The position numbers and the translations under genes were made by a program. Below, in pieces: positions 2,403 to 12,586 of a DNA stretch of 22,811 bases. How positions within the stretch are numbered: the first letter of the stretch is position 1; each line of letters starts with the position of its first letter. The notes beneath the pieces were generated by a model. The model had not been told where the DNA came from. It made no database searches and was given only the letters and a program-made list of their open reading frames with translations. This stretch comes from a virus. The stretch spans positions 1 to 22,811 of IMG/VR virus record IMGVR_UViG_3300019760_000012; one strand, written 5' to 3'.

Positions 2403-3656
2403 TCATTTCGATGGCAGGGCTTTTAGCTTTTTAAGCTCTTCCATGGGCAGGCGTATCACCTTACGGCCTTTGATTACCCAAATATTCTCCAACTCTGAAT
2501 GATTAAGGCCCTGACCTTTTATGGCTCTGAATAAATCATGATCGCTGATACCAGATCGGATATCTAAAACAACAGTATTGGCCTGTTTGGCTGCATCCTT
2601 CACCTCTCGTTTAATGGCGTTAATTTTATTAGCCCGGTTGGTTTTAAACTCAACTGAAAGCTTCCTGTTCAGGATAAAGGCATCAGGATTTTTAAGTTTA
2701 TTCTTCATAAACTCAAACGGCATCAATTTTTCCCTGAGTACTTTTAAGTCCTTCACTTTCGTGCGCGGGTCAATATTAGGCAACAGCCATACATTGTCTC
2801 CTTTATCGGCCAGCTTTTTAGCCGTTCGCATATTGTCGCTTAATTCATCCGCCCCATGCAAATGATGTTTGTAAATACGCCCGCCTTTTGCTGATTTATA
2901 CATTTGATGATACCCTTCTTTATTAAGTGCCTCAGCAGCTTTAAAGAGCTTTTTCTTTTCGGCCCTGGTGGTGTTAACCTGGTAACTGTGATTATCAGAA
3001 AACACCTTGCCGGTATGAGCCGGATTCCCCTCAAGCCCTTTATCGGGTTTCACCGTCTCCGTTTCCCAGGGAGTATTGGTCGGTTTCTCGTTGGTTGGTT
3101 CGATACCGCACTGGCAACCCCACAAAGAACCGGGCATGTGATGTGCCCAAAAGGTATCGCTATATGCCCACACCTGACCGTAAAATGGTTTATGCCCTTC
3201 ACGCGGATGAGCTGCTGTAGAAGGCACCCACCGGAGGTTAGCGTACAAATCTTTGTTACGTTCATACTCCTTAAACTGACGGGTGATCCTGGCACGCTTA
3301 AGAGCCGTGCCGTGTTCGGTTTGTAACCAGGTGCGGTTGTATTGGCCGATTACCTTTTCACTGTCCTTTCGGAAGGTGTTAAACGGTTTCGCCTGCCCTT
3401 CTTTGTCATGGAGCAAGGCCACCAGGTCCTTTTGAAAATGGTGGTTTTTAAAGACCGAAAAAACAGCATTGTTATTCTTCAGCTCGTTGATAAACTCCCA
3501 ATCCGGATCACCCCACTTAACCACTCCAAAACCTTTATCAATAGCATTGTTTAGGGTTTGATGCGTTATTTTGAAAAGCTTTGGGTGGATATCGCCGGGC
3601 TTTTGATACAGGCCGCTGTGAATATCAAACAAGGCTTCCTCTTCATCCGGAAGCAA
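2403..3656 (-). CDS. MuF-type phage head morphogenesis protein with C-terminal PD-(D/E)xK nuclease-like domain
   Basis: Taken from the first possible start (TTG at 3656) it has 417 residues, but the frame is open 34 codons further, to 3758, without ATG, GTG or TTG, and those codons look like real protein (for example FRAEIDQLYFKSG). The true N-terminus probably comes from a -1 frameshift out of the portal gene. Residues 120-190 are the MuF/SPP1 gp7-like head morphogenesis part, ending in the typical HMPGSLWGCQCGI. Residues about 265-403 form a second domain with PD (324-325) and E-F-K (336-338), then an alternating helix/strand pattern ending WVIKGRKVIRL. This looks like the CdiA-type C-terminal tRNA nuclease or polymorphic-toxin domains known to be fused to MuF proteins. 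The role is a minor head protein near the portal, possibly delivering the nuclease. No evident immunity gene is adjacent. Confidence 0.75.
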   Translation of the reverse strand: MLPDEEEALFDIHSGLYQKPGDIHPKLFKITHQTLNNAIDKGFGVVKWGDPDWEFINELKNNNAVFSVFKNHHFQKDLVALLHDKEGQAKPFNTFRKDSEKVIGQYNRTWLQTEHGTALKRARITRQFKEYERNKDLYANLRWVPSTAAHPREGHKPFYGQVWAYSDTFWAHHMPGSLWGCQCGIEPTNEKPTNTPWETETVKPDKGLEGNPAHTGKVFSDNHSYQVNTTRAEKKKLFKAAEALNKEGYHQMYKSAKGGRIYKHHLHGADELSDNMRTAKKLADKGDNVWLLPNIDPRTKVKDLKVLREKLMPFEFMKNKLKNPDAFILNRKLSVEFKTNRANKINAIKREVKDAAKQANTVVLDIRSGISDHDLFRAIKGQGLNHSELENIWVIKGRKVIRLPMEELKKLKALPSK

Positions 3657-3711
3657 TTCAATACGCTCAAGTGGTGTGGATCCACTTTTAAAATATAACT
3701 GATCTATTTCA

Positions 3712-3764
3712 GCCCTGAAGGACTCATGATTTGTATTGAGAGCTCCAGGGCCTATGCGAAAAAA
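3712..3764 (-). other. Candidate -1 frameshift signal, portal to MuF
   Basis: In the portal frame the mRNA reads GGT TTT TTC GCA TAG. The heptamer T TTT TTC (3764 down to 3758) is a canonical X XXY YYZ slip site. Six bases later GCCCTG (3751-3746) can pair with CAGGGC (3717-3712), with an inner CTC/GAG pair, giving a downstream stem at the usual distance. After slipping, codons from 3758 are in frame with the MuF gene and would give an 861-residue portal-MuF-nuclease fusion. A sequencing indel in the six-T run is the main alternative and would also imply a fusion. Confidence 0.55.
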
Positions 3765-4987
3765 CCTTTTAAAGTATCGTAGAAGTTACGGGCACTACTT
3801 TCAGGCTCACCACTTTTACCTTTTGCCTTTTGCTTTTCCTTGCCTTGTGGTATGGGCTTTGGCTCGCTATTCTTTTTACCTGCTTTTTTTGCACCACCCT
3901 TGGGTACAGGGATATCATAAGTATCGTAGAAATATTCTGGCTCAATCTCAACAATATCATTTAGTTCGGTATCCCTTTCCAAGCGTTCTTTAGGTGATAG
4001 TTTATCCTCATCAGCAAAAGAAAACTCACCATCGCCCGGGTTATAACCATGCATCTCAAGCAGCTCTTTAAAACGGCCATTTAACAGCATTAAAACTTCG
4101 CGGTCATCGGCTTTAAATATGTCGCTCTGTTCCTCTTTATGCACATCCGCTTTATACTGGCCACCCTTATCACTTGTGGTTAAAGTATTGCCCAGGAATA
4201 TTTTTGCAATTGCATTTTCACGGGCAGTCTCAAACTCCTTCATACTGCCCTTGCTGTCGCCAATGTTGTTAGGCAGTATTTCTACATTCGTTCCTTCAGG
4301 ATGAACGATAGCCGTACCACTGTTTTGGTTTTCAAAAGTATCTTCCAGCTCTTCCTTGGCCTCTTTATCGTGACGCGGATAGGTTCCTTTTTTAAGAGGC
4401 TGCCCAAATATCTCGTTAAGGGTTGCCCAGTCAGCCGTATTGTTCCGTTTATAGATGATATGAGGAGCCGCTTCCAATAAACGTCCCATCTCTTCGGGCT
4501 CACCTACCTCTAAGACATAATGATTAAGCGGCGTTTGGGTATAATCAGTGCCATTGATGTCGTGTTGCTGATATTTGACAATATGCTTCTCGGGTACCAC
4601 ATGGCGGCGGTCGATTAATTTAACTTCTGGCTTTTGTTTTCCCGGTAAAGAGATATCACACCATAGAACCGTGTAACCATAGGGCACCCGGCTAATCATC
4701 AGCTTTAATAACTTATGCGTAAAACCCGACTTGATTAAACCGTTAATCAAATCATTCTTTTTACCATCGGCACTAAATACCAGGCGGCGGTTGAGTATGT
4801 TAAGCTCCCGTTTATTAAAAACCGAGATATACTGGTCGTCAAGTGCCAGGTTCTTATAAAGATTATGAAGGTATGAGCGGTCGGGATAATCAACGCTTTC
4901 TGCCCTTTTAATAGCCTGTGTCCATTTACTTAAATCAATGGGTTCACGCTTGGGGGCAATGGTTTTTATTACAATTTTATCGGACAT
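3752..4987 (-). CDS. Portal protein, DUF935 (Mu gp29-like)
   Basis: The protein has 411 residues, starting MSDKIVIKT. The ATG at 4987 is chosen over in-frame codons at 5023 that lie in the upstream repeat element. It forms the dodecameric ring at the capsid vertex through which TerL pumps DNA. Features typical of the DUF935 family are the N-terminal D-x-x-x-W-T-x-A segment (about 30), the clip/stem region with LMISRVPYGYTVLWCDI (about 110-125), the ATLNEIFGQPLKKG segment and the C-terminal helix FETARENAIAKIFLGNTLTT. The last 45 residues are Lys/Gly/Pro-rich and look flexible, leading to the slippery end GFFA. The flexible tail suits a linker to the MuF domain if the frameshift occurs. It lies between the gp36-like and MuF genes in the leftward operon. 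Confidence 0.85.
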   Translation of the reverse strand: MSDKIVIKTIAPKREPIDLSKWTQAIKRAESVDYPDRSYLHNLYKNLALDDQYISVFNKRELNILNRRLVFSADGKKNDLINGLIKSGFTHKLLKLMISRVPYGYTVLWCDISLPGKQKPEVKLIDRRHVVPEKHIVKYQQHDINGTDYTQTPLNHYVLEVGEPEEMGRLLEAAPHIIYKRNNTADWATLNEIFGQPLKKGTYPRHDKEAKEELEDTFENQNSGTAIVHPEGTNVEILPNNIGDSKGSMKEFETARENAIAKIFLGNTLTTSDKGGQYKADVHKEEQSDIFKADDREVLMLLNGRFKELLEMHGYNPGDGEFSFADEDKLSPKERLERDTELNDIVEIEPEYFYDTYDIPVPKGGAKKAGKKNSEPKPIPQGKEKQKAKGKSGEPESSARNFYDTLKGFFA

Positions 4988-12160: not shown

Positions 12161-12586
12161 ATGAAAGTATCCCAGATTCTAGCAATGGATTTCACCAAGC
12201 TGAGCTTTGACCAGCTTCAAAAGTTAATTGAGAAAATAAGAGCAGCTGCAGCCACTAACCTGGAGGTGCCGGAAAAGTGGAGAGAAAAGGTAGCCGAATG
12301 GAAAGGCAAAGGCAAGGTGAAGCATGCACATGTGGAAAGTGTTGGTTCCATCTTCTTTGCATTACCAACCCGCGAACAGGTACAAGCAGCTGAAGAGTTG
12401 TCCACCGATGAAGAGGGCAAAGTGGATATCTATGCCAAAGCGGATCAGCTGATGGCCGACTGTTACCTGGGCGGTGATATCACACTGGAGGATGTTTTTT
12501 CAGACACTGAGCTTTACATGAGTGTGGCCAAGTTTGCACTGTATGAACTGGTACAGGCAAAAAACGTGCTCTCGGGTCTCTGCTAA
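12161..12586 (+). CDS. Tail assembly chaperone, short form (G-like)
   Basis: The protein has 141 residues. It starts MKVSQILAMDFTKLSFDQLQKL and is helical throughout, including EWKGKGKVKHAHVESVGSIFFALPTREQVQAAEEL and a C-terminal segment DVFSDTELYMSVAKFALYELVQAKN. Length and position between tube and tape measure are those of the G product of lambda and Mu gp41-type genes, which coat the tape measure protein during tail assembly. The last six codons (VLSGLC, then TAA) follow a slip site, so this is the unshifted product. No usual Shine-Dalgarno is seen; the leader is A-rich. Confidence 0.85.
   Translation: MKVSQILAMDFTKLSFDQLQKLIEKIRAAAATNLEVPEKWREKVAEWKGKGKVKHAHVESVGSIFFALPTREQVQAAEELSTDEEGKVDIYAKADQLMADCYLGGDITLEDVFSDTELYMSVAKFALYELVQAKNVLSGLC

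Follow-up and report, generated by a model that had tools for sequence, protein, structure and literature searches.

The MuF gene lies directly after the portal gene both in phage SPP1, where the two encode gp7 and gp6, and among the MuF polymorphic toxins (PMC6316719, PMC5576092), including Bxa of Bacteroides (PMC11699363). In SPP1 these are separate proteins with separate starts, and MuF binds the portal at low copy, only 1-2 copies per capsid (PMC5576092); MuF toxins, which carry variable C-terminal toxin domains, are thought to be carried there. In Microbacterium phages (actinobacteriophages) of clusters EA3, EA5, EA8 and EB portal and MuF form one polypeptide (PMC7302621), with no frameshift reported in that description. 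We analyzed the portal-MuF junction of a 22,811-nucleotide (nt) stretch of viral DNA, IMG/VR record IMGVR_UViG_3300019760_000012 (hereafter the window). As in these systems, MuF directly follows portal in the window. Comparison with related loci indicates, with a probability of roughly 0.88, that the two form one translation unit joined by ribosomal -1 frameshifting.

The lambda G/GT tail-assembly chaperones are a close mechanistic parallel, in that ribosomes slipping by -1 on an X_XXY_YYZ heptamer, shortly before a structural gene ends, make a minor, C-terminally extended protein. The heptamer T_TTT_TTC has also been proposed for a tail-assembly chaperone frameshift, for example in PaMx73 (PMC4378225). 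Unlike in lambda, the pair at our junction is portal and MuF, two whole proteins are united in the long form, and a mirror-image wiring occurs. T7-type major capsid genes (10A/10B; Privateer, PMC7881722) similarly produce two head-protein isoforms from one gene by a -1 slip, but there a capsid shell protein gains a short extension, whereas here portal gains a MuF/toxin domain. Escherichia coli dnaX resembles the mirror-image wiring, since its 0 frame encodes the long product and ribosomes slipping by -1, with a hairpin downstream, soon meet a stop and make a short product; dnaX is however an unrelated gene for a cellular polymerase subunit, and the portal site exists in the opposite wiring too. 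Papers on hankyphage, Porphyromonas gingivalis phages, MuF toxins (Bxa included), SPP1 and the Microbacterium fusions describe no frameshift at the portal/MuF junction. Targeted searches of the open-access literature, as distinct from subscription papers and preprints, turned up no portal/MuF frameshift either; the frameshifts found there were in tail, capsid, transposase, hydrolase and reverse-transcriptase genes. The mechanism is known, while its place and the mirror wiring appear to be new.

The portal-MuF junction and its conservation

The elements of the junction in the window are as follows.

3752..4987, minus strand: portal, short 0-frame isoform, Mu gp29-like/DUF935 (PF06074); 411 amino acids, C-terminus ...LKGFFA-stop
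3758..3764, minus strand: slippery heptamer T_TTT_TTC, read in the portal frame with TTT in the P site and TTC in the A site
3711..3752, minus strand: hairpin with arms 3752-3743 and 3720-3711 (10-bp stem) and an inner 4-bp helix in the loop
2403..3764, minus strand: MuF (-1) frame, 453 codons plus stop; C-terminal part of the predicted 861-residue portal-MuF fusion
3659..3758, minus strand: -1-frame leader, residues 3-36, RIGPGALNTNHESFRAEIDQLYFKSGSTPLERIE; coding, without ATG, GTG or TTG; conserved FFRxxP and Y24
Predicted -1 leader peptides: IGPGALNTNHESFR and AEIDQLYFK in the window, ESPGER in hankyphage

The portal gene, whose Pfam match is Portal_Mu (E 4e-53, 181 bits), ends on the minus strand with AAA GGT TTT TTC GCA TAG, the stop occupying 3754-3752. 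The heptamer stands in the X_XXY_YYZ register of the 0 frame, within the overlap of the portal and MuF frames. The MuF frame is open from just past a TAA at 3788 through 2403, and its first ATG, GTG or TTG is the TTG at 3656. A first-pass annotation, made from the window alone, had proposed this slip site at 3764-3758 at this portal ending, a MuF frame lacking a start codon upstream of TTG 3656, and an 861-residue fusion; the heptamer is indeed in the correct 0-frame register, reading of the frame gave the same start-free region, and the arithmetic of the fusion length is correct. It had also described a GCCCTG/CAGGGC stem, which proved to be the core of a stronger structure of 10 bp plus the inner helix. 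This core begins 6 nt past the heptamer and is conserved among relatives; the window hairpin as a whole begins 5-6 nt past it. The window hairpin has a folding energy of -21.4 kcal/mol, and 0/200 dinucleotide shuffles were as stable (z = -4.2). Both halves of the junction match phrog_35074, an 890-position profile that is itself a portal-MuF fusion.

The string TTTTTTC is by itself not rare, with 8 occurrences in the window. Relatives were gathered through motifs within the MuF domain, within the portal, and through fused proteins. None of the scanned motifs included the slip site, so the sampling was independent of it. Scans of IMG/VR with single proteins had returned 0 relatives with portal and 1 with MuF, and alignments were needed to find relatives. 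We collected 291 portal/MuF loci, mostly from Bacteroidota phages: 184 with MuF in the -1 frame, 91 single-open-reading-frame (ORF) fusions and 11 with MuF in +1. Two loci in frame +1 (L118 and L038) resemble indels or assembly artefacts and were left uncounted. A further scan of 395 genomes from the phylum to which the genome of L095 (below) belongs gave matches in 42, which were excluded from the junction statistics.

The slip site was present in frame in 169 of the 184 loci with MuF in the -1 frame (hereafter wiring A), or 95 after deduplication at 90%. In all 69 of 69 divergent representatives the codon preceding TTT TTC ends in T; given the amino acids and each locus's own codon usage, the chance of this is ~10^-87 under independence, although the loci are not independent. 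Elsewhere in the portal genes of the same 69 loci, an in-frame T_TTT_TTC occurs once in 27,052 codons. Across divergent homologues the heptamer is conserved beyond amino-acid constraint, as is characteristic of -1 frameshifting.

The downstream hairpin is conserved in place as well as in pairing. Its left arm begins 6 nt past the heptamer in 88/95 wiring-A representatives and in 49/50 representatives of the single-ORF fusions that carry the site (wiring B). For the covariation analysis the left arm was fixed at the 6-nt spacer, and only the four outermost pairs served to locate the right arm. Even so, pairs 5 and 6 form in 94% and 92% of the 145 deduplicated loci, compared with 31-43% at flanking positions, and their types include CG, GC, TA, TG and AT. 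This covariation is not introduced by the search design. The junction accordingly has a structure within the 5-9 nt downstream distance of a stimulatory RNA, with covarying pairs.

Past the portal stop, differences between relatives pile up at the wobble position of the -1 frame (200/420, against 87 and 115 at the other positions; 35 disjoint pairs), while in the portal region proper the preference is reversed, with 707 versus 204 differences in favor of position 3 of the 0 frame. F1, F2 and Y24 never vary among 33 divergent MuF leaders, and R3 and P6 are almost as constant. In hankyphage p00 (BK010646.1, L005 3787-5226) the annotated MuF ATG lies 4 nt before the portal stop, yet the conservation of the -1-frame protein (FFRxSP...SFR) extends upstream of this position. 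The codon found there in relatives is CTG in 25, ATG in 15, GTG in 9 and TTT in 4, with CTT and others making up the remainder. Judged from this alignment the position is a variable residue and not a conserved start, and with conserved -1 coding upstream of it the p00 MuF start is probably misannotated. The new frame is under coding constraint with no need of its own start. The comparison thus favors the frameshift proposed in the first-pass annotation: slip site and stem persist even in very distant relatives, whereas no MuF start codon does. The main group showed neither runs of seven or five T nor a clear MuF ATG with no slip site, which that annotation had named as signs to the contrary; separate genes or slip-less fusions occur in a few lineages beside it. 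Two further proposals of that annotation, that portal alone is the product of most ribosomes and that copy number at the vertex is set in this way, reach beyond the comparison. A three-locus clade adjoining that of the window (L028, L034, L114) carries CTT TTT TCG or TTT TTT TCG at the junction, where the MuF frame is reached by +1 or -2 with the FFR motif kept in it.

Single-ORF fusions with the mirror-image wiring

In the complete P. gingivalis phages portal-MuF is a single ORF, and this ORF contains CGTTTTTTCGCGTCGGCCCCGTCGCAAGGCGGGGCG, which retains the slip site, its register and the hairpin. The site and hairpin are kept in 76/91 single-ORF fusions (50 after deduplication), a count on which we rejected the view that the fused relatives merely do without frameshifting. 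Since MuF in these fusions needs no frameshift, the retained site must serve a short product. In wiring B portal-MuF is the 0-frame product, and ribosomes entering the -1 frame would meet a stop within 6-32 codons and make a short portal. The site has been lost altogether in some fusions, for example in Parabacteroides sp. PF5-9 (GGT ATA TTT GTC). This reversed wiring lay beyond the view of the first-pass annotation.

The short -1 tails of wiring B bear marks of selection. The standard deviation of their length is 5.2, whereas 200 synonymous-codon simulations gave 19 on average and never less than 9.6. The sequence FFRxSP...W[KQR]SPH is found in many tails and FFRxRP...EIDxxYxxH in others, and near the PH motif 30 loci show 11 distinct tetrapeptides in the -1 frame versus 24 in the 0 frame. 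Difference counts within the tails indicate dual-frame constraint, returning to the 0-frame pattern past the -1 stop (Fisher p = 0.006, disjoint pairs). An early -1 stop with a selected shorter product, as in dnaX, is found in the wiring-B relatives only. A portal tree of 71 rows built with IQ-TREE implies at least 8 changes from one wiring to the other (FastTree gives 9), a number that is approximate because many inner branches are weak; one supported sister pair, L016 and L233, has opposite wirings. The mirror wiring suggests that portal is kept by selection in two isoforms, with MuF and without it.

Easy interchange of the wirings suggests, as a conjecture, a slip efficiency near one half. 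We would give even odds to a broader scenario in which an ancient two-isoform portal has been governed by one recoding switch whose wiring flipped repeatedly (with one clade moving to +1 or -2), the efficiency near one half yielding a similar mixed ring in both wirings and a fixed MuF/toxin dose.

Proposed mechanism and competing explanations

In the mechanism that we propose, ribosomes on the portal message would reach GGT TTT TTC, where the hairpin 6 nt downstream would pause them, and a fraction would slip one base back on T_TTT_TTC. Ribosomes that do not slip would read one further codon (GCA), stop at TAG and release the 411-amino-acid portal, while those that slip would continue into the 861-amino-acid portal-MuF fusion with its CdiA_C-type toxin domain. 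Portal C-termini point into the head interior, so the fusion would tether a few MuF/toxin copies in the capsid at the exit channel. The heptamer U_UU.U_UU.C is among the more efficient in E. coli (PMC4066793). The 1-2 copies of MuF in SPP1 suggest a purpose for the ratio, namely a small dose of MuF and its C-terminal toxin in the head. Comparison of the loci establishes the site, its register, the hairpin, the coding of the -1-frame leader and the maintenance of the site in both wirings; from these we infer that the ribosome slips rather than RNA polymerase, how frequently it does so, the mixed portal rings and the loading of toxin.

Slippage might instead occur in transcription, with RNA polymerase stuttering on the T6 run so that some mRNAs carry an altered run length and encode the fusion with no ribosomal frameshift. 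Those of the 184 loci that lack T_TTT_TTC have, as examined, mostly homopolymer runs at the same place: T7-T9 at the junctions of L043, L063, L097, L098, L113, L138, L184 and L209, and runs of 7-12 A replacing TTTTTTC in L008, L027 and L036 (A12 in the latter two), with no obvious GC hairpin. Polymerase slippage is plausible at such long runs and is a possibility at the three A-run junctions. A run of six T is short for polymerase slippage, which moreover needs no P/A-site register, yet the T6 almost always sits as T_TTT_TTC; a hairpin whose spacer is constant at 6 nt and whose pairs covary is typical of a ribosomal stimulator. We therefore consider transcriptional slippage unlikely for the window. 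MuF could also be initiated independently or by stop-start coupling, from TTG 3656 here and from an ATG or GTG overlapping the portal stop in hankyphages. The annotated p00 start, the ATG or GTG at its position in several relatives, and the loci L154 and L193, which resemble separate genes (L193 with TAATGG and no slip site), are in keeping with this. Many relatives nonetheless have CTG, TTT or CTT at this position, conservation of the -1-frame protein reaches further upstream, and independent initiation would leave the slip site and hairpin with no reason to persist, which makes this explanation very unlikely.

That a lost T split a fused ORF, whether through an error of sequencing or assembly or in a pseudogene, deserves mention since homopolymer runs are prone to indel errors and some relatives do have portal-MuF as a single ORF. 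The junction is genuine, however, with no sequencing slip. The same six T stand in L095 (JAEINY010000109.1), an independently assembled prophage with 97% amino-acid identity in a Marinilabiliaceae metagenome-assembled genome; an identical junction occurs in L002, an IMG/VR contig at 59-76% amino-acid identity; and much more distant phages, at 30-40% identity, show exactly the window's geometry in the overlap of portal and MuF. Isolate phages (hankyphages, TCUEAP3) and more than 160 loci repeat the six T and this geometry, and both frames remain open and constrained, so that an error or pseudogene can be dismissed as extremely improbable. The near-identical prophage L095 also suggests Marinilabiliaceae as the host of the window phage.

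Several observations weigh against -1 frameshifting as the joint between portal and MuF. An ATG in the MuF frame lies ≤60 nt past the slip site in 25/95 wiring-A representatives, some of which may additionally start MuF separately, and the periodicity test on loci without a start codon was weak (p = 0.03-0.5, few close pairs). AlphaFold, given an alignment of the window with IMG/VR or genome loci, predicted a mostly flexible or disordered leader (pLDDT, the per-residue confidence score, < 50 over residues 1-15 and 19-33), and we rejected the leader as part of the MuF fold on account of this disorder. In this model the folded MuF domain starts near residue 38, so a MuF begun at TTG 3656 would be predicted still to fold. 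A Foldseek structure search against the PDB gave no match with E < 0.001. The loci share ancestry, and their counts are not counts of independent events. Finally, a need for no more than 1-2 copies of MuF would imply very high slip rates in wiring B.

The MuF C-terminus and the biology of the fusion

The MuF protein of the window matches Phage_Mu_F (PF04233) over residues 141-220 with 30.4 bits (cut-off 29.6), in the position directly after the portal gene that is typical of MuF polymorphic toxins. Its C-terminus contains a putative antibacterial toxin domain:

2469..2693, minus strand: CdiA_C (PF18451), residues 358-432 of MuF, 26.6 bits, which is exactly the curated cut-off

The C-terminal domain varies within the family, as it does in these toxins; among 33 members scanned, CdiA_C was found in 9, LPD3 in 3 and Gln_amidase in 1. 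No ORF of ≥60 amino acids that could encode an immunity protein directly downstream of MuF was present between 2403 and 2215, and the next gene is for tail completion. A shorter or distant immunity gene is possible, and the toxin label therefore stays putative. In hankyphages a reverse-strand ORF directly follows MuF (L005 5209-5508; L010 and L012 5209-5478, minus strand) and is a possible immunity gene candidate. Elsewhere in the window, the tail-chaperone candidate (ORF 12161-12586) carries A_AAA_AAC at 12559-12565 on the plus strand. This is likely a frameshift of the lambda G/GT type, with a -1 frame that stays open to about 12783 and whose extension looks like protein.

MuF starts are probably misannotated in many Bacteroidota phages, hankyphages included, and constructs built from such annotations would lack the portal half. 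If the frameshift fusion is true, it couples the dose of MuF directly to portal synthesis. The mirror wirings would then provide a rare natural test of whether a recoding site is conserved for the ratio of two products or for either product.
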